Shown in pieces: positions 10,103 through 41,676 of a stretch of DNA of 64,000 bases. This stretch comes from Roseovarius arcticus (GTDB taxonomy: Bacteria > Pseudomonadota > Alphaproteobacteria > Rhodobacterales > Rhodobacteraceae), in NCBI RefSeq assembly GCF_006125015.1, contig NZ_SZZN01000001.1, forward strand, positions 1,116,001 through 1,180,000, given 5' to 3'. A program made the translations under genes and the position numbers. The notes under the pieces were generated by a model. That model was not told the DNA's origin, did no database searches, and saw only the letters and a list, made by a program, of their open reading frames with translations. The first letter of the stretch is position 1. The number at the start of each line of letters is the position of its first letter.

Positions 10103-10115
10103 ACAATTTCCCCAA

Positions 10116-19375: not shown

Positions 19376-19420
19376 CAAAATCACAACAATCAAAACACTG
19401 ACCAAAGGGAGACCAAAGAT

Positions 19421-20458: not shown

Positions 20459-20467
20459 AACGCCGGG

Positions 20468-20490
20468 CCGGGGGCGATCAGCGCCCCCGG
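20468..20490 (+). terminator. hairpin between the binding-protein and ATPase genes
   Basis: CCGGGGGCG (20468-20476) pairs with CGCCCCCGG (20482-20490) across a 5-base loop, immediately after the binding-protein stop. Without a full T-run it is more likely a partial terminator or mRNA-stabilising stem. Such a stem keeps the binding protein in excess over the membrane subunits. Confidence 0.6.
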
Positions 20491-20518
20491 TCCTTTACTG
20501 AACAAAGGACGCATTTTG

Positions 20519-21571: not shown

Positions 21572-21596
21572 GCATTTCGGCGAAAGGGGGGCGGTT

Positions 21597-23710: not shown

Positions 23711-25291
23711 ATGAGCCAGATCACCAAACCGACCAAAATTACCGGACCAACGCGCCGCGGATTTCTCGGCACAACTGCGGCCGCTGTCGGCCTCGCATCT
23801 GCAGGAACGCTCTTGGGACTCAGGCCCGCCCGCGCCCAGCAGCAGCGCGGTGGCACACTTCGGGTGGCCAAAGGCCATGGCCAAACTGGCGACACGCTGG
23901 ATCCCGCAACATGGACCAACGGCTTTGAGGTTGCGCTGACCTTCGGGTTGAACGGCTACCTCGCCAAAGTGGGAGTCGATGGCTCGGCCGAACCCGATGT
24001 GGCCGAAAGTTGGGAAGCCAGCCCAGACGCCAAGACGTGGACGTTCAAGATCCGCCCCGGCATGACCTTCCATTCCGGCAAGCCGGTCACGCTGGACGAC
24101 GTGATTGATTCGATTAACTATCACCGCGGCGAGGATTCGAAGTCGGCCGCAGGTCCACTTGTTGCGCCCATCATAGAGATCACCAAAGACGGTGAAGACA
24201 CGGTGGTCTTCGAATTGGAATCCGGCAGCGCCGACTTCCCCTTTGTCTTTACAGACTACCACATGGCGATCTGTCCCTCGGACGGCGCCGGCGGCATCGA
24301 CTGGCGCTCCGGTGATGGCTGCGGCCCCTATCGGCTGGTGGAATTCGATCCCGGCGTCGTGGCGCGGTTCGAGCGTTTCGAGGACGACTGGAACCAGGAT
24401 CGCGGCTTTATTCAGTCGGTCGAGATGCTCTCTATCGTCGACGTGAACGCCCGGACCACCGCACTCGCCTCCGGCGAGGTCGATGCCATCGACAAGCTGG
24501 ACCTCAAGACGGTGGCGCTTCTTGGCCGCAATCCCGAAATCTCGATCCATTCCATCCCCGGCCCGCAGTACTACAGCTTTGCGGCGCGTGCGGATACGCC
24601 GCCGCTTGATGATGTCAACGTGCGCCTCGCCCTAAAGCACGCCATTGACCGGCAGGAACTGGTCGACAAGATCCTGTTTGGCCACGGCACCGTGGGCAAC
24701 GACCAGCCGATTGGACTGAGCTATCGTTTTCATAATCCCGACGTGCCGCAGACCACCTATGACCCCGACAAGGCGAAGTTCTACCTCAAGGAGGCCGGGC
24801 TCGACCGACTGACCGTGCGGCTGTCGGCGGCCGATGCAGCCTTCCCGGACGCCGTCAATGCTGCCACCTTATACCGGAATTCAGCGGCCAAGGCCGACAT
24901 CACCATCGACGTCAATCGGGTTCCGAATGACGGCTACTGGTCCGATGTCTGGATGAAGCACGAGTTCAGCGCGGTCTACTGGAGCGGCCGTCCGACCGAG
25001 GACCAGATCTTTTCCACCGCTTTCGGGGGAGGCGCGGCGTGGAACGACAGTTTCTGGGCAAACGCTCGTTTCGACGAATTGCTGGTCTCGGCCCGCGCCG
25101 AACTGGACGAGGCAAAGCGCCGCGAAATGTATGGCGAGATGCAGCAGATCGTTGCGCAGGATGGCGGCACGGTCCTTCCGATGTTCGCCAATTGGGCCTT
25201 CGCCACCTCCAAGCGCGTTGTCCATGGCGAATTCGCATCGAATTTCGACCAGGACGGCGAGCGCTGGATGGAGCGGTGGTCTCTGGCCTGA
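23711..25291 (+). CDS. ABC transporter substrate-binding protein, family 5 (peptide/opine type), Tat-exported
   Basis: A 526-residue family 5 binding protein (DppA/OppA fold). The N-terminus carries a twin-arginine signal (TRRGFLGTTAAAVGLASAG, cleavage near ARA-QQQ). Landmarks: LDPATWTNGFE, EPDVAESWEASPDAKTWTFKIRPGMTFHSGKPVTLDDV, GCGPYRLVEFDPG, and VRLALKHAIDRQELVDKIL. ATG 23711 follows AAAGAGAGAACC; an ATG five codons upstream is possible. No permease or ATPase gene adjoins it, so it is an orphan binder that must borrow a transporter. It is closed by a strong hairpin. Confidence 0.85.
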   Translation: MSQITKPTKITGPTRRGFLGTTAAAVGLASAGTLLGLRPARAQQQRGGTLRVAKGHGQTGDTLDPATWTNGFEVALTFGLNGYLAKVGVDGSAEPDVAESWEASPDAKTWTFKIRPGMTFHSGKPVTLDDVIDSINYHRGEDSKSAAGPLVAPIIEITKDGEDTVVFELESGSADFPFVFTDYHMAICPSDGAGGIDWRSGDGCGPYRLVEFDPGVVARFERFEDDWNQDRGFIQSVEMLSIVDVNARTTALASGEVDAIDKLDLKTVALLGRNPEISIHSIPGPQYYSFAARADTPPLDDVNVRLALKHAIDRQELVDKILFGHGTVGNDQPIGLSYRFHNPDVPQTTYDPDKAKFYLKEAGLDRLTVRLSAADAAFPDAVNAATLYRNSAAKADITIDVNRVPNDGYWSDVWMKHEFSAVYWSGRPTEDQIFSTAFGGGAAWNDSFWANARFDELLVSARAELDEAKRREMYGEMQQIVAQDGGTVLPMFANWAFATSKRVVHGEFASNFDQDGERWMERWSLA

Positions 25292-25587: not shown

Positions 25588-26844
25588 CTACCCGAGCAGG
25601 TCTTCTTCAAAGGGAAAGCGCGACAGCAATTCGATACCAGTCTCTGTCACGAGGACCTGTTGTTCCAGCTTCACGCCTTCGCGGCCCCCAGCTTCGCCAG
25701 TATAGCTTTCAACGCAAAGGGTCATGCCGGCAAGGATTTCACCGTCATAGCCCGCATCTGGGAAGTCGCCACGGTGGTAGAGGTAGGGATACTCTCCAGT
25801 CATGCCGCAGCCGTGCGCCGACAGGTAGTAGCGGTTTTGATAGTATTTCTCGGGGATGTCCCAGGCGCGATCAGCGTAGTCGCGAAAGCTCATGCCTGCC
25901 TTCAGGATGCCCATGTTGTGGACTACCTGCTCGTGCGCGACTTTGTATAACTCGCGCTGCGCACTGGTCGGCTTGCCCGGACCCGAATGGAACGTGCGCG
26001 AGAAGTCGGAATAATAGCCGTGGCAGCCCACTACATCCGTATCCAGTGCGATCAGTTCGTTCTCTCCGATTACGTTGCTGGAAGTTTCCTGAAACCACGG
26101 ATTGGACCGCCCCCCGGCATTCAGCAGGCGCGTCTCGCAGTAATCCGCGTTCTGCGCGATAACGGACTGGTGCAGGACCGACCATAGCTCATTTTCGGTC
26201 ATACCGGGGCGGATCGCGGCGCGAAGTTTTTCCACGCCGTTTTCCGTGGCGCGGAGCGAGGCATTGATGCATTTCATCTCCTCGTCCGATTTAATCGCCC
26301 GCGCCATTTCGACGGGCTGCTGCGCATCGACGATGGTCAGCCCGCACTCTTTCAGCGCAATCGCAGTGCCTGCATTTAACCGTTCCAGCCCGACAGTCGC
26401 GCCAGCGCCGACCAACTCGCCGATCAGGTCTGCCATCTCTGTGGCCCATGCCTTTTCGCGCGCCGCAATATCAGGCCCCGCTGCAACAAAGCTGGCGGTT
26501 TTGGAGGGGCGAACTTCGTCGATAGTCTCATAGCCCTCGCCCAGGTGGAGGCAGCCGGTGAACTCGAAGAGGATCGATTTGCCGGCCGTCAGCAGCAGAT
26601 AGCGTGACGGCGCGTTGCGCTGGCAGAACACCTGCATGTTGCGCGCGCCGGTTGCGTAGCGGATGTTGATCGGGTCCGACAGGATCACCGCGTCCACGCC
26701 GTAGCGCAGCATCTCGCGGCGCACGCGCCCGAGCCGATAAAGACGGACGGCCCTCAGGTCGATGCCTTCGCTTTCGGGCGCGCGATCCAGCAAGGCAATC
26801 CCGGCTAAATCACTGCGTTCCGCGTGCCAATCAAAATTCGCCAA
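25588..26844 (-). CDS. M24 family metalloprotein, DddP-like (possible DMSP lyase)
   Basis: A roughly 418-residue pita-bread (creatinase/aminopeptidase P) protein. In the M24 half the metal ligands are all visible: two Asp in IALDTDVVG, Asp in YYSDFSRTF, His in LSAHGCGM, Glu in LCVESYTGEAGG and Glu in VKLEQQVLV. The stretches ETRLLNAGGRSNPWFQE and DTDVVG...SRTF, and the ending FPFEEDLLG, resemble the DMSP lyase DddP more than ordinary Xaa-Pro peptidases as I recall them. DMSP cleavage to dimethylsulphide and acrylate is plausible in a marine bacterium but not shown. No ATG is in frame. TTG at 26844 is 8 bases after AGGAG and was chosen; another TTG is at 26865. An out-of-frame ATG lies between. 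Confidence 0.65.
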   Translation of the reverse strand: MANFDWHAERSDLAGIALLDRAPESEGIDLRAVRLYRLGRVRREMLRYGVDAVILSDPINIRYATGARNMQVFCQRNAPSRYLLLTAGKSILFEFTGCLHLGEGYETIDEVRPSKTASFVAAGPDIAAREKAWATEMADLIGELVGAGATVGLERLNAGTAIALKECGLTIVDAQQPVEMARAIKSDEEMKCINASLRATENGVEKLRAAIRPGMTENELWSVLHQSVIAQNADYCETRLLNAGGRSNPWFQETSSNVIGENELIALDTDVVGCHGYYSDFSRTFHSGPGKPTSAQRELYKVAHEQVVHNMGILKAGMSFRDYADRAWDIPEKYYQNRYYLSAHGCGMTGEYPYLYHRGDFPDAGYDGEILAGMTLCVESYTGEAGGREGVKLEQQVLVTETGIELLSRFPFEEDLLG

Positions 26845-26860
26845 GTCATGCTCTCCTGCG

Positions 26861-26906
26861 TTCAAGTGTAGCTTCGGCTATGCGGCGAAACGAGTAAACA
26901 CTTGAA
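26861..26906. promoter_or_regulatory. 9-bp inverted repeat in the DddP-like/lysR divergent region
   Basis: TTCAAGTGT (26861-26869) and ACACTTGAA (26898-26906) are exact inverted copies 28 bases apart in the gap between the two divergent genes. Spaced dyads of this kind suit a LysR-type activator that also represses its own gene. Confidence 0.5.
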
Positions 26907-28002: not shown

Positions 28003-30831
28003 TCACCTAAATCGCATCGTGGGCGATGGTGCGCGGCCCTTGATCGTTGCGACGAGCGCGTTCAGCAATTTGGGGTCGGTACAGCAGGCGGCAAGGTTTC
28101 CGGGCGTGTCTGAAGTCTCATCCGGCTTGGCGCGAACTGTGCAGGCCGCCCCGCCCATCGCTCTTTCCGCCAGATCTGCCCAGTCACCGGCATAGGGTGC
28201 CAGGTTACTCGTGTCCCGGCGGGGGCCAAGCGGCCAGACCCGGTGGGCATAAGTGCCGTTGCGGATTGGCTGCGCGACCGGGCCGACCTGAAGCAGCCGG
28301 GTTATAGCAGGCTCGCCCCTTTGGACCGCCTCATCAATCTGGGCAGAGGCAGCTATAGCCCCAGCGCCGAAGGACAGCATCGACAGGGACCGTCCCTTGG
28401 CCGCCTCGATGCACAGGGCTGCACCGGCCTGCCACAGCGGCCCGCCCGGCTGCGCGGAGATCGCCGCGAAGTTTGCAAAATCCGCGAGCAGCCTACCGCA
28501 AAGACGCTCGGCGCGGCGTTCCAGATAACTCCCTGCGCCACTCGCCGCCTGTCCGAAACGGTCGCTGACCAAAGTAGCTTCGGCCCGCATACGGGAGGCA
28601 AATGTCGTAATCTCGTCAAGCCCGTAGGTGATGTGCAGCGGAAAGATCCTGTTGCTCAGCAGGACAGGCGTCAGGTAAGCGGCGACCCGGGCCAGCGTCT
28701 CAGCGCCAAGGAACGGATCGTGATGCAGGATCAAAAGGTGCGGGCAGCGCACACTGCTTTTGGGATCGCAAAGCTCGGCAACCGCCTCGCGTAGGGAGGC
28801 AAGGCCCAGACCAAGCCTGCCAACTTCGACAATTCCGTCGCGTTCGGCGTGGATGACATGACCCAAAAGCACGTGACGCGGCGCTCGCGGTAATTCTCGG
28901 ATAGCCGCTGGAAGGGCCGCGTCGGCCTCATCGGATACCCTCGCTGCCGGGGCCAGTCCAAATCCTGATGGCGCAGGTGGGGCGAGGCGGATGATCCAGG
29001 CGTCGATCAGGTTCTGCGCCCAATCTTTGTAGCTCCAATGTGCGAGACCGTCGAGATCGTGCCAGCCGCCCCACTGCGGCCCCCATGAGTTTTGCACAAT
29101 GAATCCGTCCGCGTCATAGCCGATGATAGCAAACGCATGTGCGCCGATACGGTCACGGCTGTAGCGGATCGAGTGGATGCGCTTGCCGTCGCTGCGTATC
29201 CATCCTGCGTGGATATGTGCCGAGACCGCGATTGCCCCCATCTCTTGTATTGCGGATTGAAAATCGGCCAGCCGGGGGCGCAGGCGGTAATAGGCGCCAG
29301 ACGTGATGGCGCGCGCATTGCGGGCAACCTGCCTTGTCATCGTCCAGCCGCGTTGACCGGGCACCCACGGGGCAAGATCGGCAGTGCATGCACCTGAATA
29401 ATGAAGCCCCTTGATAGCCGCGCGCAGGCTGGTTCCGCCGAGCCGGTCATCGATCCACTCATCCTGACTTTGCGCCATTTCATACAGCATCCGGGCACTG
29501 ACCGCCGGGGCATTTGGTGCGGTCTGGCGCCGTTGCAGATCAATTACTGCGGCCAGCGCAAATCCAACGCAGGCCGCCTCTGATCGCTGGTTATGGATTA
29601 TGCGGGCCGGATCACGAACCGGCAGGACTGCGTTGCGTGGCATACACATTGGCGGTGTGTAGAAAAAGTCGCGCGTATCTGGTCTGTCTTGCGTTGCTGC
29701 GGAAATCAAAGGTAGCGGAATGTCTGCCGGGTCCCCGCCGATAAAGGGCGACGCTGCCTCATCATCGGGATCGACCAGCGCGGCTGACCATGAATCCGGA
29801 GGACGCAGTTCCGGCGGTGCGCGCTCGGCTACGGGCAAGGTATTCTCTATCTCTTGGTGCATCCGAACCTCGCGCAATAGCTGAGGCATCGAAACCGCGC
29901 GATTGGCCTCTTCTGCGGCAGGATTGCCGCCCACTACGAACTGCCCGCCGCTGGTATGCAGGCCGACGATCCGCCCGGTGCGCAGACTAAAGACGGGCGA
30001 GCCGGAATTGCCGCCAAGCGTAGAGGCATCATGGCGCAGCATCAGGGCCTCGGCCTCAACATGGGTCGTGGCTGCTGGGGCCTGAGCGGGCGGCGCACCT
30101 AGGCAAAGACCGGGGCAAATGCGGCGAACGCCGAGCTCGCCCTCAAAGATTGAGGCGAAACCGCCGCTATCCTCCAGACCCTCTGGTACGAAACCTTGCG
30201 CCACAGGGTACCCCAGAACTGCCATCGGTTCGTCCGGGTCATGTGTCCAGTCCAGATCGGGCTCAAGCGGGGGAGGGACCACCGCAAGGGGGCGATCAAG
30301 TTCGCAAAGCAAGACATCCCAAAGCGCGTGCGGCCAGATGACCGACGTGATGTCGATGCCGTCTGCCTCCGGGTCCGGATTATCGGCAAAGGTGATCCGG
30401 GTCTGGCGCAATGCTGTAGGATCGGCCGGATCGACCGGGATGCGGCGAAGCCGCCGAATTGCACGCGTTTGAGAGTTCATCATATACCGCAGCACATGGC
30501 CGGCGGTCAGCAGACGGGCAGTTTCGCCGTTTGCGCCGGCACTGACGACCCATCCGGTCCCGATACGCATCCAGCCCTGTTGGTGGCGCACCTCAATCCT
30601 GCCGATCGCAGCGGAATGAGTGGCGGCAATATCAGCCAGCGATCCTGCGAAATCGCGAAACTCAACTGGGAGGAGCGGTGGAGGAGGGCCGGGCAATGCA
30701 TTGTTCGCTAGCGCGATGCCCGGCCGCAGAAGCCGGATGATCCGCCCGACGCGTGAAAGGCTCCCGCGCGCGGCTGCACCGTCGTCACGCATCAGTGGGC
30801 GAAGATTGGAAACGATTTTAGAATTTTTCAT
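28003..30831 (-). CDS. trypsin-like / papain-like protease fusion with degenerate alpha/beta-hydrolase-like C-terminus
   Basis: A 942-residue protein without a signal peptide, so probably cytoplasmic. Residues 70-325 are a chymotrypsin-fold serine protease with triad H112 (LLTAGHVL), D172 (LWDVLLCEL) and S276 (GGNSGSPVF). Residues 385-617 are a papain-fold (C1A-like) cysteine protease: oxyanion Q415, C421 (EAACVGFALA), H565 (GAHAFAIIGYD) and N581 (NSWGPQWGG). The Gln-Cys spacing of six is that of papain. Residues 650-900 look like an alpha/beta hydrolase (CPHLLILHHD, LTPVLLSNRIFPLHITYG). However the nucleophile elbow reads SFGAGAI where GHSAGAI is expected, with Gly at 822 in place of Ser, so this part is probably not catalytic. 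The domain call for the last third is inference. Divergent from the giant oxidase gene, 165 bases apart. Confidence 0.75.
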   Translation of the reverse strand: MKNSKIVSNLRPLMRDDGAAARGSLSRVGRIIRLLRPGIALANNALPGPPPPLLPVEFRDFAGSLADIAATHSAAIGRIEVRHQQGWMRIGTGWVVSAGANGETARLLTAGHVLRYMMNSQTRAIRRLRRIPVDPADPTALRQTRITFADNPDPEADGIDITSVIWPHALWDVLLCELDRPLAVVPPPLEPDLDWTHDPDEPMAVLGYPVAQGFVPEGLEDSGGFASIFEGELGVRRICPGLCLGAPPAQAPAATTHVEAEALMLRHDASTLGGNSGSPVFSLRTGRIVGLHTSGGQFVVGGNPAAEEANRAVSMPQLLREVRMHQEIENTLPVAERAPPELRPPDSWSAALVDPDDEAASPFIGGDPADIPLPLISAATQDRPDTRDFFYTPPMCMPRNAVLPVRDPARIIHNQRSEAACVGFALAAVIDLQRRQTAPNAPAVSARMLYEMAQSQDEWIDDRLGGTSLRAAIKGLHYSGACTADLAPWVPGQRGWTMTRQVARNARAITSGAYYRLRPRLADFQSAIQEMGAIAVSAHIHAGWIRSDGKRIHSIRYSRDRIGAHAFAIIGYDADGFIVQNSWGPQWGGWHDLDGLAHWSYKDWAQNLIDAWIIRLAPPAPSGFGLAPAARVSDEADAALPAAIRELPRAPRHVLLGHVIHAERDGIVEVGRLGLGLASLREAVAELCDPKSSVRCPHLLILHHDPFLGAETLARVAAYLTPVLLSNRIFPLHITYGLDEITTFASRMRAEATLVSDRFGQAASGAGSYLERRAERLCGRLLADFANFAAISAQPGGPLWQAGAALCIEAAKGRSLSMLSFGAGAIAASAQIDEAVQRGEPAITRLLQVGPVAQPIRNGTYAHRVWPLGPRRDTSNLAPYAGDWADLAERAMGGAACTVRAKPDETSDTPGNLAACCTDPKLLNALVATIKGRAPSPTMRFR

Positions 30832-30996
30832 CGGATAATCTCCGAAATAAAATTAGCACAACGCCAAGTTGCGCGAAAGCCTGTTAGCGAATCGTAAAAT
30901 AAGGCATACTGGACCTACCCTACGTTTTATTTGCAGCACATCGCGCCTTTATTGACCGCAGCGATTTAGGCCGGTGAATTGATAAAGGGTTTGATC
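30832..30996. promoter_or_regulatory. divergent promoter region between protease fusion and giant oxidase
   Basis: This 165-base gap is clearly AT-richer than its flanks and must hold the promoters for both directions. I cannot assign -35/-10 pairs with confidence and see no strong dyad. An AAAGGG at 30984-30989 serves as the ribosome-binding site for the ATG at 30997. Confidence 0.4.
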
Positions 30997-33900
30997 ATGC
31001 CTATTGTTCTTCGCCTTTTCGTATTTGCTTTGGTTGCTTTATCTTTTGCCGCCGTGGCGCCTGTCCCGGCGCGGGCCGCCGAGCAGATTGAGACACGCCC
31101 GACGATGGCAGAGATTTGTCGAGAGGCGCCTGAGGACGGCAGGGTGATCTGCGCCGATGTTGGCGCGCTTGACCAAACGCTGGTTTATAACCGCTTCGGC
31201 TCGTTCAATCCGTTTGGGATGATCTTTGCGCTGGATCGCGATCTCGCTGTACTGCGCCGCGAGAGTGAGGCGCAGGCTGACCCATCGGTAGATTTGATAA
31301 CCGCATCCGACTGCTCGGCGTTGACGGGGGCTGAACACGGCCATCCAGGGATCGCGCTAGAGGCTGGAAACGTACGCCTGAAGGATTGCAAGCGTCCGCG
31401 CCCACTGGTTCTGCGGGCAAATGTCGGAGACGTGCTGATCGTACGGGTGTCCAACTGGCTGTTCGATCCGGACGCGCCCGACTTCTCAAAGAATTTTTGC
31501 AAGGCCGCCCCGACCACCGATAGCAACGCCGAATCCGTGCGGCCGCATGTCACGCGAGGCAATTCCAGCGAACTGCGCCATCAGGAAGTGTCCTGCCTTG
31601 CCACCGATGCGCTGGAAGAGGACGAGGCTGCGCAAGACTTCCCCGCGCCCACCGACTGGCCCCGGACCCGGCATATCAACTTTGTCACCCAAGGTCTGAT
31701 GCCGCTGCAGATAGATGGCGAAATTCATCCCGGATGCATCGGAACAGGCTCAGCGGGGCCGAATGAGAGCTTTCTCTGCAAATACAAACTGCCCCAAGAG
31801 GGAACCTACTTCTTTGCCTCGCAAGCGGCTCCGGCAGGGGGCGAGGGTAATGGCGGATCAATCGTACATGGTTTGTTTGGCGCGCTGATGGTTGAGCGGG
31901 CCGGCACCCGCAGCTTTCGCAGTCAGACATCGACTGCAGCCTTTGATGCCGTCTGGCCCCGCGCCGAAAATGGTGTCCGCCACGCGCGCAGCGAAATCCT
32001 CGATTACGAGCGCACGCTGGCCGATCATCTTGGCACGCCGGGGGCCGATCTTGAACAGCGCGCGCCGCTCCTTAATATGGCAATGGTGCTGGACGCGCCC
32101 GCACCGCAATCGCCGCCAGACCAGCGCGCCTTTGCTGAGGCCACCCGGCTGGAAATCGTGCATTCGGATCTGAATGCAATCATCTATTGCGATCCGGCGG
32201 TTGACGGCAATGATTGCCGCGCCGACCAAGCCAACACACCAGCACTTTCGCGCGAGCCGGTGTTCAAAGCCTTCCGTGAATTCTCGGTCTTCTTTCACGA
32301 TGAGTTAAAAACTTTCTACACGCGCAACTACGAAGAACTGGCGCGGTTCGGCCAGCTTGCTGGCGTAAAGGATGGCTTTGCGATTAATTATGGCTCGTCT
32401 GGCATGGGCTCTTTGCTGCTGGCCAACCGCAAGGGACTGGGCCCGGCGGCGGAATGTGCTGAATGTATGTATGAGGAGTTTTTCCTCGCGTCTTGGGCCA
32501 ACGGCGATCCGGCGCTCTTGGAGTGGTATGCTGACGATCCGTCGAATGTGCACCATTCCTACCTCAACGATCCGGTGGTTTTCCGCAATTTCCACGCTGG
32601 ACCTAAAGAAACGCATGTCTTTCACCTGCACGCGCATCAGTGGTTCGCCGGTAATGACCCTAGCCGTGGGACCTACCTGGACAGCCAGACGGTCGCGCCG
32701 CAACAAAGCTTTACCTACAATATATATCATGGAGGATTGCGCGCCTTCGACGGTGCCGATGAAGGGTGGTGGGATACCCAAGGGTCAGGAAACCGCAACC
32801 GGACGATTGGCGATTCCATCTTTCACTGCCATCTTTATCCGCATTTTGCCCAAGGAATGTGGGCGCTGTGGCGCGTTCATGACGTTCTTGAGGACGGCAC
32901 CCGCAAGCTGCCCGACGGTCAGTTAACGGCAGAGCTGTCGACACGGTTTCCGACGGCCGACGAACGCGGTCACAGCCGTCCCGGCTCGGTCGACAGGCTG
33001 ACGGGCGCTTGGACCGGCCCCGAGGCGGGTGATCCGAATGAAAACAACGGAACGCCCATTCCGGCACTGATCCCCCTGCCGGGAGAGCCGCTGCCGCTGT
33101 TGCCGACCTACGCCGCTGATAGCGATGTGGATGATAGCGGCGCAGCGCCGGTGCTAAAAGCCGAGGCCAAGACGCCCATGCCCGGCTATCCATTCTACAT
33201 CGCCGGCCAGCCGGGACACCGCCCACCGCAGGCACCGCTGGATATTGCGCGGGATCTGGGCGAGCACGCCGACGGCACGATTACGGACGCCTCGCCAGTC
33301 GCCGACATCACGGCTGAAATAGACGAACGGGTGAACACCGAGGCGTGGCTTGATGGCGGGATCGGGCGCCATGTGGTCAGCGATGGATCGCAGCGCGAAC
33401 TCGGTTTTGCATTGCCACCCGATACGGCGGACCTGCTGGAGTCCGCCGCATTCGACGCACTGAGCGAAGAGGAGCGCGCCGCGCTGACTTATCAAATCGT
33501 CGCCAAGGCCTTTGCGCTGGGCGATCTCTCTGCCCATTTGACCGAGGCGCGGATTGAGACGCTGCCGAATGACGGCACTCGGTTAGAGCGTGCTGCGATG
33601 GGATTCCATTTCAACGGCCAGCTTTACCGCGCCGATGGGCTGAACGCCGCCTTGCGACTGACCGATTTCACGGGCACCGATCTGGCCGATGGTCCGGTCG
33701 ACGGGCTTTACCCGACTGGGGATGCGCCGCTTCCCGATGGATCATTTCCTCTAACCCCCCGCAATGCATTTCCGGTCAACGGCAATGCGCCAAAACCCGG
33801 TGCGCCCTTCGCAGATCCGTGCGGAGTAACGGCGCCCGAAATGCGTGCCGAAGTGACACCCGGCATCGACCCACTGACGCGCAACGCAGATCCCGGTGAT

Positions 33901-36900
33901 CCCTATTTTCACGATCCGTTGCTGCTGGGGTTCAGGCGGTACGAGGTGTCGGCGGTACAGCTCGACTTGATCGTGAACCGCGCGGGTTGGCACGATCCGC
34001 AGGCGCGCATCAATGTGCGGACCGCGCAAAGCGAACGCTTCAAGGAGGCGGCAACGCTGGAGGGTGCCAAGCCGATTTCGCCCACAATCAGCGATACCGA
34101 AGAGCCGTTCTTTTTCAGGGCACTATCGGGGGAATGCATCGAATTTCGGCATACCAACGAATTGCCCAAGGATCTGGAGCTGGACGATTTCCAAGTCAAG
34201 ACACCGACAGACACAGTGGGCCAGCACATCCATCTGGTGAAATTTGATGTCACCGCATCTGACGGGTCCGGCAATGGCTGGAATTACGAGGATGGCACTT
34301 TTGCCGCCGATGAACTGGCTGCGCGGCGCTGTGCATCCGCAGGCAATGTGACCCCGCGAGAGGACGCAGGGGGGATCACGCTGAACGGCGGTGAATGCAA
34401 CGGGTCCGACCCTGCGCAGAGTGATATCTGGCGGCTGAGCCGGACAGAGAACCGGGACAAGTTTCAGACCACCGTCCAACGATGGTTCGCGGACCCGATC
34501 CTAACGATGAATGGCGATACGGACGATCCGCAATTGCGCGACCGGACCTTGCGCACTGTGTTTTCGCATGATCATTTCGGTCCATCGTCAATCCAGCAGC
34601 ACGGGTTCTACTCTGCACTGGTGATTGAGCCGGGCGTCGGCGTGCCGCCCGGCCCGCTCGGACAGCCCGACGCGACAGGCAGCGTTGGCGGCGAAATGGA
34701 ACTGGCGTCGATTTGTAACCAGAGCGGCGGCGATTGTGTCGGGCCAATTCCCGACGCGAGCCGCCTGAACTCGGTCGCTTGGTCGGGCGAGGTCTGGGAT
34801 GGCACAAAACGCCGGGTACGGATGCAAGGCACAAACCCCGCGCACCCTGATTATCGCGAATTTGCCCTTTCAATTGCGGATTTTGCACTGCTCTACGATC
34901 CGCGTGACCGCACCAGCGTCGCCGATCTGCAAGAGCCGGCAAAGTCCAAGGCGTACGGCGCAGGCGAGGCCGAAGAGCTAGCCTTTGCCGATGCCTTCGG
35001 CATGGGGCAGTTATTTTGCGAGGCCAAATGGCGGCTGAGCCCCGAAATGCTGGATCAAAAATGCGGGGTCGCAGCCACCTTGGAATTCGCGTCCGATTTC
35101 GAGTCGGCGGACGGTTTGACGAATGACAGCTGGTACCTGCCCGGCGATATGGCCCCCGCATGGATAGCGGGCGGGACGGCCGGCGACGAGGCCCATAGCG
35201 CGCGCCTGTTTGGTGATATGTTCGATGACACGGCCACCGATGAAGTGAGCGAACTTTTCGATCATATGGTCTCTTATCGGCAAAGGGCGGCAGGTTTTCT
35301 TAGCCCGCCCGACGACGATAAGGTTGCGTCGCTGGCCAAACCAGTCGCGCCGCCGATCCGGCCTGAATCGATCTCGGTCGATCACCACGATCCTTATCTG
35401 GTAAACTACCGCGGCGCGCCGATCCCTCTGCGGATAGGTGACAAGGAGGCGCTGGCGACCCCCTCAGATGACTGCCGCCTCCGTGATATGGGGGTGCCGG
35501 GCGAACACGCACTGGATGATGCCGGCAACCCGCTGAACGATCCTAGTGAGGTCGCAGAGACCTTGGCGAATGGGGATTTCGGCGAATGTTCCGTTGACAT
35601 GCAGCTGACGGGATCTGCTGGCGATATGGGCGAGGCACTGCGTTCGGCAGTGCACGGCGATCCGGAAACTCTGATCCTTGAGGCCTATCAGAACGAGCGT
35701 TTGGTGATCCGCCTGATCCAAGGTGCGCAGGAGGTGCAGCATACGTTCAACGTCGCCGGGCTCGCGTTTCATCGCAACATCGATCAGGCGTATCCGGCAG
35801 GCAAGCAGCCACTGGGCCTGTCACAGGAGCGCCAAGACACGCTTTCGCTGCGCGACCGCTGTCTTGGGAATGGGGTGCCGCTTGGATCGCCCGTTCCTGC
35901 GGCGCTTGATGGGCGGCCGGATGAATACCGGACCTGGCGCGATACGGCTGAGGATCATGCGTCCCATTCCGAGTATTGGCGCGACTATGAAAAGTTGATC
36001 GCCGAATGTGACAACGTGGAGGGGTTTACGTTCGCGCAGGAGGTAGGGATTTCCGAACATTTCGAGATGAACGGATCGCTCCGGGCCGATGTGCCGATCA
36101 GCGTCGAGGCCGCCGCCTTTCCAGTCGCTGAGGAGCCATCGGGCGACGTGCCGGACAAGTCGTCAGACTTCCTCTACAGCTTTGGCTCGGTTGATGCGCT
36201 GTGGAATGGTGCATGGGGCCTCGTGCGCATCTATAGCGACCCGAGCGCGCCTGATCCGGCCACGGTTGCCGCGTTTAATCCAGGGTCTGATGCCGAGGAG
36301 GGCGATTCACCCGCTGCAAACGTTCCAATCAGAGACCGGCTCGGCGAGACAGGAGTGCGCGACGAAAGTTTGGGCGATGAGGGATCTGCCGTTGGCACCG
36401 GCGGGCTGATGTGCCCCTATCCGGACAAGGACGCGCCGCCGCAGCGTATCGTTGATGCGGTGCTTGCTGCGGTTGAGACCCGCACAGTCTGGCCTTCGGA
36501 TGGCGGCACAAACTATGGGGGTGGGCGCTATGACCCCGATGGGCTGATGCTGGCGCTGTTGTCGGCGGATGATCTGGGCATTGAAGGCGGCGTCGCTGCA
36601 ACCGATGGATGGGACGCGCTGACACGGCCGGACGTTCTGGACGCGGTAGCGCTGAACTACCGGCACGGACCACGCCCGATGACGTTGCGGGTGCGCGCAG
36701 GCGATTGTGTGCGGCTTCGTTACATCAACGCGCTAGAGCAAAGCGAGGGCGGGCTGAGCGACCTGCTGGGCGATGCGACAATGCCGCCAATTGTTCCGCT
36801 GAACACCGATCCATTCCCCCACGCGCCAGCACATGGCGGCAGCGATGGTCTGCTGCAACCTGTAGAGGCTGGGATGCGAAAAGGCGGGGTTCGCCCATCA

Positions 36901-38334
36901 GCGCAACTGGCGTTGAACGTGGGGCTGCCCGGTATGGACCTGATCCGCGATTTGCCGCTGGCTTATGGGTACGGCACTGCCGGGCTGCCCGCGGCGGAAG
37001 GCGACGGCGTCACTGTCAGCCCGCCATTCCTGTTTTATGCCGGGCGCATGCGGCTGGACCTGCCGGGCGAGGCTGCGTTAAACGATCTGCTCGTGCGGAT
37101 TGCGGCGCGGACGGCACAGGAACTGGCAGCGTTGTCGCCCGCCTGGATATCGGACGGGACAGACACATTTCCAGCGGCTGGCGAGACTGATGTCTTTAAT
37201 CCAAAGGATCTGCCGCCCGAGTCTGCCCAAGATGCCATCTTCTCGGTCCTTGGGGTGGGATATGCTTTGGAGCTGATACCTCAGATCGTGTCGGGGCCAC
37301 TATCCCAGCGGCTGGATGAAGCACTACCCATCATCGACGCGTCGGAGGACGGGTTTGACACACTTGTCGCGGCGGTTTGTGAGGGTAGCGATTGTCTGGA
37401 CACGGATACCGTGCGCGCACAGCTTATGGACGCCGCGCGCAACGCCGCGCTGGAGGAGCTTGACGCGCGGGTTCACTGGATGCCCTACGCCTTTGGGGCG
37501 GTGCCGATCCGGTCCACATCCGACGTCATCAGTCACGTCCAGCACGGTCTTTTCGGCGCAATCGATGTGGTGCCACGGGGCTGGACACCGGTCGGGTCAA
37601 TGGGACAACAGCTGGATTGCGAGGTGATCGACCGATACGAGGTCTGCGGCGCGCGTCATTCCGAGGGCGCCGATCCGGTGCCGGGCGATGGCGGCACGAT
37701 GCTGTTCGAGGCCGAAGGGCCGGAGGGTACAGTCGAACGCACGCGCGAATTTGTGCTCTATTATCAGGACGGTCTGAACCTTTGGGACGACGCATCGCGC
37801 ATCGACTGGTCATGGCAGGACGAGAGTGCGACGCCCGCTGTTGAGCAGGATGGAACACCTGTCAAGATGGTACCGGACTGCATCGTTTGCGATGACAGCT
37901 ATGATCGCGGTGAGAAGGGCGTGAACTATCGCTCGCCCTCGTTCACACAGGCGCTAACGACAGCCGCGCTAAGGGTGGAAGAGAGTGATGACCTGAATGC
38001 CTTTGTCTTTGCGCCTGACTACCTGACTGCGCATCCCGGCGCTCTGCGGCTAAAGGCATGCGAAGGCGAGCAGGTCGTGATCCGCGTGATCCATCCGGGC
38101 GGCCGTGCGCGACAGCGAGCGTTTGTGATGAACGGCTACAACTACGATGATCTGTTCCCCGGTTTTGGCTTTCCACGCTCTGTGCTGCTGGCACCGGGCA
38201 AGAGCATGACAGCATGGCTAACCCCAAAGGCAGTTCCGGGCGTTGCGGTCTGGCATGATGGACCGGCGCATATTCGCACCGGCGGCGTCTGGGGCCTGCT
38301 GGACGTGGCGGAGGCCGCGCAATGCGGTGGCTGA
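30997..38334 (+). CDS. giant multicopper oxidase, MnxG/McoA-like, exported
   Basis: A 2445-residue protein with a signal peptide (hydrophobic to about residue 24, cleavage near ARA-AEQ) and repeated cupredoxin-like segments. Copper-site motifs: HVFHLHAHQW from H540; HCHLYPHFAQGM at 610-621, the classic HCH-x3-H-x4-M type 1/type 3 motif with axial Met; HIHLVKFDV from H1077; FSHDHFGPSSIQQHG at 1189-1203; HTFNVAGLAF from H1582; and HVQHGLFGA at 2180-2187. Ordinary multicopper oxidases have 450-650 residues. Proteins this long with these motifs resemble the Mn(II) oxidases of Pseudomonas and Bacillus, so oxidation of Mn(II) or another metal or small molecule in the periplasm or outside the cell is likely. 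The actual substrate is unknown. ATG 30997 follows AAAGGG; a TTG six codons earlier is weaker. Overlaps the next gene by 13 bases. Confidence 0.85.
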   Translation: MPIVLRLFVFALVALSFAAVAPVPARAAEQIETRPTMAEICREAPEDGRVICADVGALDQTLVYNRFGSFNPFGMIFALDRDLAVLRRESEAQADPSVDLITASDCSALTGAEHGHPGIALEAGNVRLKDCKRPRPLVLRANVGDVLIVRVSNWLFDPDAPDFSKNFCKAAPTTDSNAESVRPHVTRGNSSELRHQEVSCLATDALEEDEAAQDFPAPTDWPRTRHINFVTQGLMPLQIDGEIHPGCIGTGSAGPNESFLCKYKLPQEGTYFFASQAAPAGGEGNGGSIVHGLFGALMVERAGTRSFRSQTSTAAFDAVWPRAENGVRHARSEILDYERTLADHLGTPGADLEQRAPLLNMAMVLDAPAPQSPPDQRAFAEATRLEIVHSDLNAIIYCDPAVDGNDCRADQANTPALSREPVFKAFREFSVFFHDELKTFYTRNYEELARFGQLAGVKDGFAINYGSSGMGSLLLANRKGLGPAAECAECMYEEFFLASWANGDPALLEWYADDPSNVHHSYLNDPVVFRNFHAGPKETHVFHLHAHQWFAGNDPSRGTYLDSQTVAPQQSFTYNIYHGGLRAFDGADEGWWDTQGSGNRNRTIGDSIFHCHLYPHFAQGMWALWRVHDVLEDGTRKLPDGQLTAELSTRFPTADERGHSRPGSVDRLTGAWTGPEAGDPNENNGTPIPALIPLPGEPLPLLPTYAADSDVDDSGAAPVLKAEAKTPMPGYPFYIAGQPGHRPPQAPLDIARDLGEHADGTITDASPVADITAEIDERVNTEAWLDGGIGRHVVSDGSQRELGFALPPDTADLLESAAFDALSEEERAALTYQIVAKAFALGDLSAHLTEARIETLPNDGTRLERAAMGFHFNGQLYRADGLNAALRLTDFTGTDLADGPVDGLYPTGDAPLPDGSFPLTPRNAFPVNGNAPKPGAPFADPCGVTAPEMRAEVTPGIDPLTRNADPGDPYFHDPLLLGFRRYEVSAVQLDLIVNRAGWHDPQARINVRTAQSERFKEAATLEGAKPISPTISDTEEPFFFRALSGECIEFRHTNELPKDLELDDFQVKTPTDTVGQHIHLVKFDVTASDGSGNGWNYEDGTFAADELAARRCASAGNVTPREDAGGITLNGGECNGSDPAQSDIWRLSRTENRDKFQTTVQRWFADPILTMNGDTDDPQLRDRTLRTVFSHDHFGPSSIQQHGFYSALVIEPGVGVPPGPLGQPDATGSVGGEMELASICNQSGGDCVGPIPDASRLNSVAWSGEVWDGTKRRVRMQGTNPAHPDYREFALSIADFALLYDPRDRTSVADLQEPAKSKAYGAGEAEELAFADAFGMGQLFCEAKWRLSPEMLDQKCGVAATLEFASDFESADGLTNDSWYLPGDMAPAWIAGGTAGDEAHSARLFGDMFDDTATDEVSELFDHMVSYRQRAAGFLSPPDDDKVASLAKPVAPPIRPESISVDHHDPYLVNYRGAPIPLRIGDKEALATPSDDCRLRDMGVPGEHALDDAGNPLNDPSEVAETLANGDFGECSVDMQLTGSAGDMGEALRSAVHGDPETLILEAYQNERLVIRLIQGAQEVQHTFNVAGLAFHRNIDQAYPAGKQPLGLSQERQDTLSLRDRCLGNGVPLGSPVPAALDGRPDEYRTWRDTAEDHASHSEYWRDYEKLIAECDNVEGFTFAQEVGISEHFEMNGSLRADVPISVEAAAFPVAEEPSGDVPDKSSDFLYSFGSVDALWNGAWGLVRIYSDPSAPDPATVAAFNPGSDAEEGDSPAANVPIRDRLGETGVRDESLGDEGSAVGTGGLMCPYPDKDAPPQRIVDAVLAAVETRTVWPSDGGTNYGGGRYDPDGLMLALLSADDLGIEGGVAATDGWDALTRPDVLDAVALNYRHGPRPMTLRVRAGDCVRLRYINALEQSEGGLSDLLGDATMPPIVPLNTDPFPHAPAHGGSDGLLQPVEAGMRKGGVRPSAQLALNVGLPGMDLIRDLPLAYGYGTAGLPAAEGDGVTVSPPFLFYAGRMRLDLPGEAALNDLLVRIAARTAQELAALSPAWISDGTDTFPAAGETDVFNPKDLPPESAQDAIFSVLGVGYALELIPQIVSGPLSQRLDEALPIIDASEDGFDTLVAAVCEGSDCLDTDTVRAQLMDAARNAALEELDARVHWMPYAFGAVPIRSTSDVISHVQHGLFGAIDVVPRGWTPVGSMGQQLDCEVIDRYEVCGARHSEGADPVPGDGGTMLFEAEGPEGTVERTREFVLYYQDGLNLWDDASRIDWSWQDESATPAVEQDGTPVKMVPDCIVCDDSYDRGEKGVNYRSPSFTQALTTAALRVEESDDLNAFVFAPDYLTAHPGALRLKACEGEQVVIRVIHPGGRARQRAFVMNGYNYDDLFPGFGFPRSVLLAPGKSMTAWLTPKAVPGVAVWHDGPAHIRTGGVWGLLDVAEAAQCGG

Positions 38335-40097
38335 TAGGTGCATTCTTGCTCATGTTTGCCGCGCCGCTAGCGGCGCAAGACGAACTGCGCCCCGCGCTGT
38401 CGGCCGACGTGGTATTCACCGAACTGACAGGCGCGGCGCTGGTTCGACCCGAACCGGGCAAGCCGTTCGAGGTCACGGTACGGATCGATAACCGGCTGGG
38501 CACTGATCCGCCTGCTGGCCTGCAACTGGCCGGGTGGTTCCGCCCTGTCGAGGACAACAATCTTGGCTGCGTTGAGGCGGCCCGCAGCTTTTTCGCCACG
38601 GGCCGTCTGCCGCGAGGCGCGATCAAGCTGAACGGGGCGCTGATCGGTGTCGCCTCAGAGGACGGATCGTTCACGATTGTTGACCCTGAGATCGATCTGG
38701 CCAGCGCCAACCTCGTCGGTGCCGCGCGCTTTGACGAGGCGCCGGCCACCCTTGTGGCCGATATTGCCGGACGCCGTTTCATTGCCGCATTGACGGAGCG
38801 GGGCGAGGTCTTGGAGATTGCAGTTCCCAGCGCCGCTCTAAGGGTACTGGCCGAAGGTCTTGCGCGTCCCGTCGCGATCCATCCAGTGCGTGGCGGCGAC
38901 GTCTGGGTCGTCGAGTCGGGGCGCGGTAGCCTCAGCCGGATTGGTGCGGACGGTAGTTTGACGGTCGTGGCCACAGACGTCCGCCACATGCTGCCCTCGC
39001 CGCCGGGCGATACGTTGGCTGTGTCGGGGCCGGGAGGGGCCGCGCTCCGCGATGCCGCAACGGGCCGTATGCTGATTGAGGTCAGCGGACCTGCGGATCA
39101 CGCCGTCGCACTAGCAGATTTTGATGAGACGTTCGCGCTGGCTTCGCTTGCCGCGGGCACTGTGGCTATTCGCTATACCGATGCGCCAGACACGCCTGTG
39201 ATGATTGAGTTGCCCGCGCCTGCGACCAGGCTTGCCGCTGGACCCGAAGGGCGCTGGATACTGGTCTACGATCCCCGCAAGGCAGGCGACATGATGCTGA
39301 TTGATGTGGGGCGCGGCGCGGTAATACAGTCGATTGCGACACCGGGGCCGATATCGGAAATCGCCTTTACTGACCGCGCGGCCTATCTGATGACGTCAGA
39401 CCAGTCGCGGATTGGCGTGTTGGATCTAGCCGCGATCCGGTCTGATCGGCCGACGCAACTGCGCGAGGTGATGCTGGGGCAGGCGCGAAAGAAGCCCCTT
39501 GAGCATGGTGGTTATCTTGCGCCGCTTTGGCCGCAACCGGGGATGATCGCCGTTCACGCCGAAAGCTATACTGGCTTTATCGTCCATGATTACAGCATGA
39601 TGGGCGACGCCCCGCCGATGAGTGCGATCCGCCTGAGGGGCGGCGTTCCGCGCCTTGTCACGGGGTTCGACCGCAGCTTTCGCGAAGTGTTGCCCGGTGT
39701 GTTTCAGACCACGGCGATGCTGCCAATCGCGGGCGAATACGAACTGGTGACGACGACCGGCATTGGATCGCTCTCCTTTTGTGCAGGCTTGCCCGCGATG
39801 GAAGGTGCCGGGGCGGGTGATCTGTCCGCGCCTGGCCACATGATCGCCGAGCGGATTGATCCCACCCATGTGCGCCTGAGCTTCCGGGGCGAGGACGGCG
39901 TGCCTGTCACAGACGCCCGGTTCCGGGTCCTTGTTACCGGGCTCGCCACACCTTGGAGGAACACGGTGGTATTGACGTCGGACGCTGCCGGTCAGGCTAC
40001 AGACGCTCTGGCAGTGCCGCAGGGCGGGCCGGTGGTGATCGCCGCCCAAGGGCGCGACGGCCATTCCTTTCACCCTTTGGTAATGGAGACACCGTAA
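38322..40097 (+). CDS. exported beta-propeller-like protein of the oxidase operon
   Basis: A 591-residue protein with a signal peptide (LIGAFLLMFAAPLAAQ, cleavage near residue 18). The body has many short repeats of the YVTN/beta-propeller kind (VAIHPVRGGDVWVVESGRGSLSRI, RLAAGPEGRWILVYDPR, ISEIAFTDRAAYLMTSDQSRIGVLDL) at about residues 170-380. An Ig-like C-terminal part follows (VPVTDARFRVLVTG...VVLTSDAAGQATDAL). No haem or copper motif is obvious. It probably acts as a periplasmic scaffold or substrate-handling partner of the giant oxidase, which is inference from the 13-base gene overlap. Its stop overlaps the next start as TAATG. Confidence 0.7.
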   Translation: MRWLIGAFLLMFAAPLAAQDELRPALSADVVFTELTGAALVRPEPGKPFEVTVRIDNRLGTDPPAGLQLAGWFRPVEDNNLGCVEAARSFFATGRLPRGAIKLNGALIGVASEDGSFTIVDPEIDLASANLVGAARFDEAPATLVADIAGRRFIAALTERGEVLEIAVPSAALRVLAEGLARPVAIHPVRGGDVWVVESGRGSLSRIGADGSLTVVATDVRHMLPSPPGDTLAVSGPGGAALRDAATGRMLIEVSGPADHAVALADFDETFALASLAAGTVAIRYTDAPDTPVMIELPAPATRLAAGPEGRWILVYDPRKAGDMMLIDVGRGAVIQSIATPGPISEIAFTDRAAYLMTSDQSRIGVLDLAAIRSDRPTQLREVMLGQARKKPLEHGGYLAPLWPQPGMIAVHAESYTGFIVHDYSMMGDAPPMSAIRLRGGVPRLVTGFDRSFREVLPGVFQTTAMLPIAGEYELVTTTGIGSLSFCAGLPAMEGAGAGDLSAPGHMIAERIDPTHVRLSFRGEDGVPVTDARFRVLVTGLATPWRNTVVLTSDAAGQATDALAVPQGGPVVIAAQGRDGHSFHPLVMETP

Positions 40098-40657
40098 TGC
40101 GCATATTTCAGGTTCTCGCAATCTTCTGCGCGCTGCCCTTTGGCCCCGCATCGGCGGCAGATGCACCAGCGGAGCTACTGATGCCCCCCAACATTCCGGT
40201 CACCGACAAGGATGGCCATACCGAAGGGTTTGTTACACGGCTGCGACCGCGCGGGCCGGTCATCATCAGCTTTTTCTACACAAGCTGCGAGTCGCTCTGC
40301 GATGTGACAAATGGCATCCTCTACGGTGTGGATCAGATCATTAGGGAAGAACGCTCAGAGCCGATTACCCTCGTCAGTCTCAGCATAGACCCCATGTCAG
40401 ACACTCCGGACGCGCTGCATGCGAATGCGGCGAATTTTTCGCCCAGCAAAGAATGGCTGTGGTTGACCGCCGGCATGCGGGGGACCGATCCGCTACTGGA
40501 TGGTCTTGGCGTCTCATTCGACAGCATCTTTGCCCATGACCCAATGTTCCTTGTCGGTGATTTTTGTTCCTCTCGATTTGTCCGGGTTATCGGCCTGCCC
40601 GAGCCGGCCCTGTTGATAGAGATGGCGCGAAAGATACCTGAATGCGTTGCGGGCTGA
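40097..40657 (+). CDS. SCO1/SenC family copper chaperone
   Basis: A 186-residue exported thioredoxin-fold protein. Signal peptide to about residue 20 (PASA-ADAP). Copper ligands C64 and C68 (TSCESLCD) and H147 (FAHDPMFLVGD) are all in place. Family members deliver copper to cupredoxin sites such as the CuA of cytochrome oxidase. Here the position between the giant copper oxidase operon genes suggests it loads that enzyme. The start overlaps the upstream stop by one base, and the end overlaps the cytochrome gene by 16 bases. Confidence 0.9.
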   Translation: MRIFQVLAIFCALPFGPASAADAPAELLMPPNIPVTDKDGHTEGFVTRLRPRGPVIISFFYTSCESLCDVTNGILYGVDQIIREERSEPITLVSLSIDPMSDTPDALHANAANFSPSKEWLWLTAGMRGTDPLLDGLGVSFDSIFAHDPMFLVGDFCSSRFVRVIGLPEPALLIEMARKIPECVAG

Positions 40658-41676
40658 TCCTAGCGTTTTTGGTCGGGGCGCCCGCCTTTGCTGAAACGCC
40701 GGGCGCCGCGCTTTACCTGCACGGCGAGGGAGCCGAGATCGCAATTGGGGGCGGCAGCGTCAGTTTGCCTGCCACGCGGTTTGCGTGCGCGGGATGTCAT
40801 GGAGCAGATGGCAGAGGCCGCGCCGAAGGGGTGACGGTTTTTCCACCTGTTCGCTGGTCCGATCTGTCGGCGTCTGGACCCTACGACCGGATGAGCTTTG
40901 CCCGCGCGTTGACAGAAGGTGTCGCGCCCCATGGCCGCGTGCTGGCGCAATCCATGCCGCGTTTTCGCCTTGAGCCGGATGTGCTCGCCTCGCTTGTCGA
41001 TCACCTGACTGCGCTGGATGCCAGTGACAGGGCAGGGGTGACAGCCACGCAGATACGTGTGGCCGCATCGGGAAACGCCGACCTCGACCGCGGATTTGCT
41101 GCGGCGATCGAGATATTCAATGCGGGCGGCGGCGCGTTCGGGCGCCAGATTGTCGCGACCCTAGACAGCGCGGCGCTCGATCTTGTCTCCTTTGATCAGG
41201 GTCAGGCGCCGCGCGTCAAAGCCGCCTGCCTCGCAGCCGCAATTGCCGCTATCCGCCAAGATGGGTACGAGGCAGTGCGCCTGGCCGGCCCGTCCGGCGA
41301 TGATATTGCTTACCGATTGCGCGCTGCTGGTCTGTTGGTTGATCCTGATTCCGAGGCCGTCCTTCATGCAGGTGAACCGGATGTCACACCGGCGGCGCCG
41401 GGATTGACCCACTATGGCTGCATTGATCAACTTGGCCCTTTTGTAGCTGAGCTGGTGCGCGGGGGTAATCACGTGGCATTGGCTGTTCCTGATCGGGCAG
41501 CGCTTGGCTGGGCGGCGGCATCGCACCGATCGGCAGACGCCATGCGGGGGTTTGCCTTGGGGATGCTGCTGGGCCGCGCGGCGCTTACTGCTGGCCGCAA
41601 GGTCACACTGGCCGAACTTGTGGAAACTGCCAGCGCGCTTCCGATAGTTCCGGAAATTGTGCGCTTGGCACCGTGA
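40642..41676 (+). CDS. c-type cytochrome fused to a shortened periplasmic-binding-protein-like domain
   Basis: A 344-residue exported protein: signal peptide to about residue 17 (PAFA-ETP), then a mono-haem cytochrome c domain with CAGCH at 49-53 and likely axial M105 (AQSMPRF). From about residue 135 it resembles the type 1 periplasmic-binding (Leu/Ile/Val) fold: GFAAAIEIFNAGGGAFGRQIVATLDS, YEAVRLAGPSG, and FALGMLLGRAAL. That part is about 200 residues, much shorter than the usual 340, so it is probably degenerate or a sensor-like remnant. It would serve as electron acceptor for the oxidase or as a link to the respiratory chain. Last gene of the oxidase operon, overlapping the SCO gene. Confidence 0.78.
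   Translation: MRCGLILAFLVGAPAFAETPGAALYLHGEGAEIAIGGGSVSLPATRFACAGCHGADGRGRAEGVTVFPPVRWSDLSASGPYDRMSFARALTEGVAPHGRVLAQSMPRFRLEPDVLASLVDHLTALDASDRAGVTATQIRVAASGNADLDRGFAAAIEIFNAGGGAFGRQIVATLDSAALDLVSFDQGQAPRVKAACLAAAIAAIRQDGYEAVRLAGPSGDDIAYRLRAAGLLVDPDSEAVLHAGEPDVTPAAPGLTHYGCIDQLGPFVAELVRGGNHVALAVPDRAALGWAAASHRSADAMRGFALGMLLGRAALTAGRKVTLAELVETASALPIVPEIVRLAP

Follow-up and report, generated by a model that had tools for sequence, protein, structure and literature searches.

Among the closest described counterparts of the locus treated here is System 3, defined by Kaur et al. (2020, PMC7159879), which has trypsin and NucA as its core; mostly in alphaproteobacteria, its trypsin shares a chain or an operon with additional peptidases. 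A similar combination is found in Roseovarius arcticus, where a 64,000-nucleotide stretch of contig NZ_SZZN01000001.1 (positions 1,116,001 to 1,180,000; hereafter the window, in whose numbering this locus is described) encodes a 942-amino-acid (aa) protein, hereafter the fusion, made up of a trypsin-like domain, a papain-like domain of peptidase family C1 and a relative of the alpha/beta-hydrolases (ABH). The fusion has the trypsin-like peptidase of System 3, but NucA, EAD1 and STAND nucleoside triphosphatases (NTPases) are missing from it and from its scanned neighbours, which instead include a multicopper oxidase operon; no match to the NucA (Endonuclease_NS), STAND or EAD families was obtained in seven window proteins, i.e., the fusion, the oxidase, a LysR protein, an M24 peptidase, a 591 aa protein, a SCO protein and a cytochrome. 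Unfused C1-ABH proteins, annotated as 'C1 family peptidase', contain the same C1 and ABH-derived halves as the fusion but lack the N-terminal trypsin and differ in their partners or have none. The C1 part also aligns, over fusion residues 382-615 and including a D-x-R-D-F-x-Y-T-P segment, with the short bacterial papains typified by PDB entry 3ois, but 3ois is a 291-residue chain with neither trypsin nor ABH. Several hydrolases per polypeptide also occur in the prokaryotic caspase of Chitinophaga pinensis with GDSL lipase and amidase, as presented in a passage of Asplund-Samuelsson (2012, PMC3501461); unlike the fusion this protein is caspase-based and has no trypsin-papain pair. The window oxidase resembles the manganese-oxidising multicopper oxidases MnxG and McoA in its match to MnxG and its multicopper motifs but differs from MnxG in that it scores 445 bits where the equivalog cut-off is 3100, and the passages of PMC11930936 that were read mention no protease neighbour of MnxG/McoA-type oxidases. 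Neither a trypsin-papain-ABH fusion nor a protease beside a giant multicopper oxidase was among the literature matches listed (titles, abstract starts and passages, with most subscription journals and all preprints outside the scope). Trypsin, papain and multi-peptidase cassettes are known kinds; their combination in the fusion and its tie to a giant oxidase were not found among the papers listed.

The fusion is divided as follows.

28003..30831, minus strand: trypsin / papain (C1) / inactivated ABH fusion, 942 aa, a real open reading frame (ORF)
29842..30651, minus strand: trypsin-like domain, residues 61-330, with H112, D172 and S276; Pfam Trypsin_2, triad in 6/6 fused proteins
29692..29841, minus strand: linker, residues 331-380, poorly conserved; mean pairwise identity 0.23 among six proteins
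28972..29691, minus strand: papain-like C1 domain, residues 381-620, with Q415, C421, H565 and N581; Peptidase_C1 and 3ois matches
28006..28971, minus strand: third domain, residues 621-942, an ABH relative with Gly822 instead of the nucleophile; profile alignment (hhalign), Gly in 6/6, low dN/dS (ratio of non-synonymous to synonymous substitution rates)

Two active-looking proteases and a disabled third hydrolase domain are almost certainly combined within this one chain, as judged from profile matches and aligned residues. Pfam Trypsin_2 covers residues 91-291 (E 5.6e-11, 43.8 bits against a curated cut-off of 27.6) and Pfam Peptidase_C1 covers residues 412-588 (E 1.7e-4, 22.1 bits against a curated cut-off of 20.7). 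With a profile match above the cut-off and a His/Asp/Ser triad the first domain has what defines a trypsin-like serine peptidase, and with its own profile match and Gln/Cys/His/Asn the second has what defines papain family C1. In a PDB search the GNSGSPVF block was matched by glutamyl endopeptidases. An earlier reading of the window, hereafter the original prediction, had located H112, D172, S276, Q415, C421, H565, N581 and Gly822 correctly, and the complete serine and cysteine protease sets that it saw do not vary freely, both the trypsin triad and the C1 set being kept in all six fused proteins with the window protein counted.

The six distinct fused loci examined are those of the window, Sedimentitalea (L005/G346), G350, Roseivivax marinus, Paracoccus aminovorans and Paracoccus sp. 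SMMA_5. Searches covered 60 relatives (matches in 2, among them the own genome), 394 genomes of the family (17 with a match, own genome counted), 385 of the class (11, including the own and one earlier genome), 398 of the phylum searched with the family alignment (14, including the own and two earlier ones), 84,980 species genomes searched by peptide pattern (1 locus) and 72,556 plasmids (21 records with a match); these genome samples overlap with one another. Three of five plasmid records carrying the fusion were examined, P. aminovorans and P. sp. SMMA_5 each having a second record, and gene starts in some of the genomes come from crude ORF calling and may be wrong. The full-length homologue of an uncultured Sedimentitalea sp. 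(L005) is 78% identical to the window protein and, as this protein and four further fused homologues keep all catalytic positions, the fusion is not a product of chance. Mean pairwise identity among the six is 0.36 in the trypsin, 0.52 in the C1 and 0.39 in the third domain. A signal-like, hydrophobic N-terminus is absent in 5/6 fused proteins, from which the presumed cytoplasmic location is inferred; with the start chosen, the G350 protein begins about as hydrophobically as the exported proteins do. A phage origin was rejected, 0 matches being obtained among 50,697 phage records. On viral contigs the single-protein query found no relative and the family-alignment query 13 loci, 12 of which matched the C1 part alone; one IMG/VR contig (L092) carries a C1-ABH gene with a GHSAGS elbow and, by eye, a nearby tyrosine-integrase-like ORF (1929-3041, 7869-10262).

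The third domain has no Pfam match of its own, and PDB profile searches with it gave nothing reliable (best E 0.27 with 12 Ser-bearing relatives and 1.6 with the six fused proteins). That it resembles an alpha/beta-hydrolase, as first proposed, is borne out by hhalign of the six fused C-termini against the 12 Ser-bearing relatives (probability 98.9, E 1.7e-17). In the profile of these relatives the Ser is invariant, and an HG motif and a C-terminal His are also present; the relatives match Abhydrolase-type families weakly (best E 0.0015). Through homology to Ser-bearing members the fusion thus contains an alpha/beta-hydrolase by descent, but Gly822 takes the place of the elbow nucleophile that an active one has. 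Whether this Gly is fixed was a question raised with the original prediction, and the alignment gives Gly at the elbow in 6/6 fused proteins. Between the window and Sedimentitalea the dN/dS (NG86) is 0.152 for the trypsin, 0.130 for the C1 and 0.118 for the third domain; being as low as in the catalytic domains, the last value shows purifying selection and not decay. The third domain is retained in a non-catalytic form and probably serves in binding, scaffolding or regulation.

The arrangement of two proteases in one chain raises the possibility of an internal cascade, in which the trypsin would activate the papain by cutting either the linker (331-380) or the segment at the N-terminus of C1; this would be compatible both with a role beside the oxidase and with an effector role (see below). 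Among solved structures the nearest match (residues 382-615, E 2.3e-5) is 3ois, a bacterial cysteine protease that we take to be xylellain. A D-x-x-D-x-R-D segment precedes the C1 core, is invariant in 25/25 rows and has the same placement in the 3ois match; a segment of this type presumably covers the active site in xylellain, whose structure paper speaks in its title of an 'intriguing activation mechanism'. The linker is moreover the least conserved stretch across the six fused proteins, which fits a cascade but is also the sole hint of a cleavage site, and unfused C1-ABH proteins occur without trypsin. AlphaFold2, run on alignments of just 2 and 3 sequences, gave a mean predicted local distance difference test (pLDDT) score of 34.0 for the third domain and only 28.9 for the full length. 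On balance we consider such a cascade unlikely, and the self-processing or cascade suggested by the original prediction gained no support.

A conserved pairing had been missed by the original prediction. In 6/6 fused loci the fused gene stands divergent to a unit of a giant multicopper oxidase, a 591 aa-type protein, a SCO protein and a cytochrome c-like protein, in this order, and the further flanks seen differ among the six. The features of this part of the window are the following.

30832..30996, no strand: divergent intergenic region between protease and oxidase, 147 or 165 bases depending on the oxidase start
30997..38334, plus strand: giant MnxG-related multicopper oxidase with an N-terminal signal-peptide-like stretch; ATG at 30997, the ORF opening with TTG at 30979
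38322..40097, plus strand: 591 aa protein, signal-like start by eye; weak ScyD/ScyE-type match (NF033206), conserved beside the oxidase
40079..40657, plus strand: SCO1/SenC family protein; Pfam SCO1-SenC E 7e-10
40642..41676, plus strand: cytochrome c-like protein; Pfam Cytochrom_C E 0.002, slightly under the cut-off

The window oxidase has about 2,445 aa and matches NCBIfam NF041487 (MnxG) in six stretches (E 4.5e-133); its 445 bits are far under the equivalog cut-off of 3100 bits, which was exceeded in 0/394 family genomes, so the oxidase is a relative of MnxG and not established as MnxG. The copper-site motifs HLHAH and HCHLYPHFAQGMW are kept in 11/11 oxidases. The 591 aa protein matches NCBIfam NF033206 below the cut-off (E 7.5e-4), has no Pfam match and is presumably a 'propeller'; the SCO1/SenC protein presumably has a role in copper insertion, and the cytochrome c-like gene is annotated as a c-type cytochrome in P. 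aminovorans. The Roseivivax oxidase (L081, 7519-14562) seems to begin further upstream than annotated, where a signal-peptide-like stretch is visible by eye. Upstream of the fusion locus the window contains an M24 peptidase gene (25588-26865) and, by eye, an ABC transporter set of substrate-binding proteins, permeases and ATPase with an aminotransferase-like gene (18095-25291).

The fused gene and the oxidase are co-inherited. In the 394 family genomes, own genome included, 8 have an MnxG-related gene and 3 the fused gene, and all 3 are within the 8; an overlap of this kind has a chance of 5.5e-6 if relatedness is ignored. A close oxidase was found in 2 of 347 class genomes, a sample that overlaps the earlier ones, namely the own genome and G557. 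In an oxidase tree made by a quick method the oxidases of the six loci and that of Paracoccus yeei fall on one side of a branch with a Shimodaira-Hasegawa-like approximate likelihood ratio test (SH-aLRT) value of 100, and the oxidase and C1 trees share the pairings window-Sedimentitalea and G350-Roseivivax as well as a Paracoccus group. The back-to-back genes in 6/6 loci suggest that proteolysis and oxidation are one coupled job, and a functional link between fusion and oxidase locus is, on this evidence, highly probable. Alternatively, the protease gene and the oxidase operon could merely travel together on a mobile segment, their actions being unrelated. Both are found on large plasmids (3/6 fused loci are on plasmids) and the fused loci form one clade, which speaks for such co-travel, but the divergent order is conserved at about 35% protein identity, the trypsin alone is retained in P. 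yeei and a dissimilar protease occupies the same place in Shinella, so that we regard the absence of any link as very unlikely.

Oxidase loci beyond the fused clade bear on what the link may be. Eighteen oxidase loci were looked at, with 9 of the 14 plasmid records that carry the oxidase and, for P. yeei, a single record out of four. A protease-like neighbour is present at 10 of the loci (7 belong to one clade) and a motif only at 1; at 6 none was seen, and 1 lies at a contig end (G173). In the P. yeei record the gene divergent to the oxidase encodes a 300 aa trypsin and the C1-ABH half is missing there; this trypsin shares 35% identity with the trypsin part of the fused P. aminovorans protein (E 1.9e-32, searched against 12 sequences) and, by eye, has the triad residues. 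The fused query matched 0 P. yeei records in the plasmid search. As the oxidase tree places P. yeei as sister to P. aminovorans (98), loss of the C1-ABH half is the simplest reading. At the same divergent place Shinella has a trypsin and an S8 subtilase, both with hydrophobic signal-like N-termini, and similarity of this trypsin to the other locus trypsins was not detectable. An S8 gene lies directly 3' of the oxidase operon in G276, an S8-like gene is seen by eye at the oxidase locus of G557, and a Methylobacterium locus has a divergent 563 aa protein (L142, 4961-6652) with a zinc-protease-like HEIGHGLNLPH motif and no Pfam match.

The fusion may be a dedicated protease partner of the giant oxidase module; this is the explanation we favour as the most likely, although as a whole it falls just short of an even chance. 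Proteolysis would control the oxidase module by processing, turnover or release of the oxidase or a partner. The trypsin domain may be the essential activity, as the trypsin half is the one retained in P. yeei or replaced by other proteases elsewhere; the C1 domain would be a second activity, possibly switched on by the trypsin, and the third, ABH-derived domain is likely to be a binding part. That the protease acts on the oxidase module itself is somewhat more doubtful. Several observations weigh against the favoured explanation. Because all fused loci belong to one clade, the pairing may go back to a single event. Five of the six fusions and the P. yeei trypsin have no signal-like start and the oxidase has one, so protease and oxidase may never meet. 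No protease gene was seen beside the oxidase in G069, G142, G443, Roseomonas, Sphingobium and Indioceanicola, as judged by eye or annotation and with truncated views for G142, Roseomonas and Sphingobium. In G557 a lysozyme-like-C1-ABH gene is present too, but at a distance of about 0.8 Mb or more from the oxidase. Finally, any specific role assigned to the third domain is a guess. In G443 (L091, L150) the oxidase operon apparently lies between HslU-like and HslV-like genes, by eye, the HslU-like upstream neighbour looking like a housekeeping gene.

The unfused relatives consist of C1 and the same C-terminal part, many with a normal GHSAGS-type elbow. The C1 Gln/Cys/His/Asn set is kept in 43/43 rows, fused and unfused together, and the ABH Ser in 24/43 (24/37 unfused rows), Gly or Ala being found in the other 19. 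These 19 rows comprise 12 with a partner combining SGNH hydrolase and caspase domains (SGNH-caspase), the 6 fused proteins and 1 with a trypsin-nuclease partner. On a tree of the 43 rows, made by a quick method, Ser loss needs three changes, located in lineages with a caspase or trypsin partner; of these, that of G403, one of three long-branch rows, is the weakest. The association of Ser loss with partner type (Fisher p 2.6e-10, 43 rows) is not usable as proof because the rows are related and the tree has only 3 changes. A nearby partner alone is insufficient for the loss, since Ser is kept in both SGNH-trypsin-partnered rows, in both SGNH-only rows and in R. leguminosarum 248, which was scored partnerless and has an SGNH-caspase gene about 3.7 kb away. 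A set of 26 rows omits G140 (broken gene) and G417 (masked by N), and the 43-row set additionally omits G818 (stop codon), L093 (C1 only), L138 and L139 (no C1) and some plasmid matches.

By the seeds used, 18/34 unfused C1-ABH loci directly adjoin genes for SGNH-caspase (some with M15), SGNH-trypsin, SGNH, trypsin-nuclease or haem peroxidase proteins, 1/34 has an SGNH-caspase gene within 4 kb and 15/34 have no such partner; in this count the broken G140 was scored partnerless and G793 was omitted, its gene having been missed by ORF calling. The neighbours of G403 and G417 are trypsin + Endonuclease_NS proteins. Ser is lost in 12/12 rows adjacent to SGNH-caspase, M15 present or not, and the SGNH hydrolase-caspase-M15 proteins beside Ser-lost C1 proteins have about 850-1150 aa (L043, 4274-7663, and similar). 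An animal-type haem peroxidase lies in the same gene run as C1-ABH at five loci (G352, G244, G110, G365 and Palleronia), and both haem peroxidases scanned match Pfam PF03098 (E 8e-22 and 5e-18). Runs that join such peroxidase genes to C1-ABH and SGNH-trypsin or SGNH-caspase genes are seen at L035 (4610-10677), L036 (2915-9512), L038 (7414-13209), L040 (6498-12282) and L085 (6268-10025); the three haem peroxidases checked in these runs have no hydrophobic N-terminus. The trypsin half of the SGNH-trypsin protein at L035 (4610-6742) matches the PADLOC 'nacht' model (E 4.9e-28). Fusions to other domains are seen in some relatives, the added domain being phage-lysozyme-like (under the Pfam cut-off), GH19 (above it in 1/2) or a muramidase. 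Single proteins without C1 also occur, in which N-acetylmuramoyl-L-alanine amidase, ABH (GHSAGS) and caspase parts are joined (L138, 6575-9316, by Pfam; L139, 6708-9575, by phmmer).

Such neighbourhoods invite the view that the locus is an effector cassette, with proteases, (pseudo)lipase and oxidase as parallel weapons in conflict or self-lysis, the oxidase doing chemical damage and the hydrolases degrading, and the protease not acting on the oxidase. It would agree with the hydrolase or haem peroxidase partners at 18/34 unfused loci, five of them animal-type haem peroxidases, with the fusions to lysozyme-like, GH19 or muramidase domains and the amidase-ABH-caspase proteins, with the 'nacht' match of one SGNH-trypsin partner, and with System 3 (PMC7159879), where trypsin+NucA occurs with EAD1-linked lysozyme and papain-like domains. 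However, 15/34 unfused loci are without such a partner and the window locus has none of them; a search of the window genome, lacking a positive control, found neither an SGNH-caspase nor a haem peroxidase homologue; the PADLOC match of the fusion is weak; and the SCO and cytochrome c genes point to an oxidase that is assembled and exported, not to a suicide enzyme. A known anti-phage defence system was rejected for the fusion, as PADLOC gives only a weak PDC-S45 trypsin-motif match (E 5.6e-4, best stretch 268-288). The kinship to conflict systems claimed at the outset thus stands for about half of the unfused relatives, by their SGNH-caspase, SGNH-trypsin, trypsin-nuclease or haem peroxidase neighbours, and not for the seven window proteins scanned, which lack NucA, STAND and EAD matches; overall, the observation behind the original prediction is confirmed and its interpretation is partly supported. 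The effector cassette is in our view a somewhat unlikely alternative, and the conserved pairing with the oxidase operon indicates oxidase-linked proteolysis at least as strongly as defence.

The partner oxidases are a multicopper oxidase at the six fused loci and an animal-type haem peroxidase at the five unfused loci. Animal phenoloxidase or myeloperoxidase-protease systems would follow an analogous logic. For direct manganese oxidation by bacteria, PMC6247904 names two enzyme classes, the multicopper oxidases and the animal haem peroxidases. It is tempting to speculate, by analogy and with considerable doubt, that these loci reflect an alphaproteobacterial protease-oxidase partnership, in which a protease cassette (trypsin or caspase with papain-ABH) is repeatedly paired with a powerful oxidase, proteolysis would control or complement the oxidative attack, and the ABH, where the protease partner is strong, would have turned into a receptor or scaffold without catalysis. 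That lineages with a protease partner have repeatedly lost the ABH nucleophile offers in itself a testable case of an enzyme domain becoming a scaffold. If the link between fusion and oxidase is true, a protease partner could explain the maturation or switch-off of exported MnxG-related oxidases of about 2,400 residues, and peptidase 'conflict' modules would be connected to environmental metal or organic oxidation.

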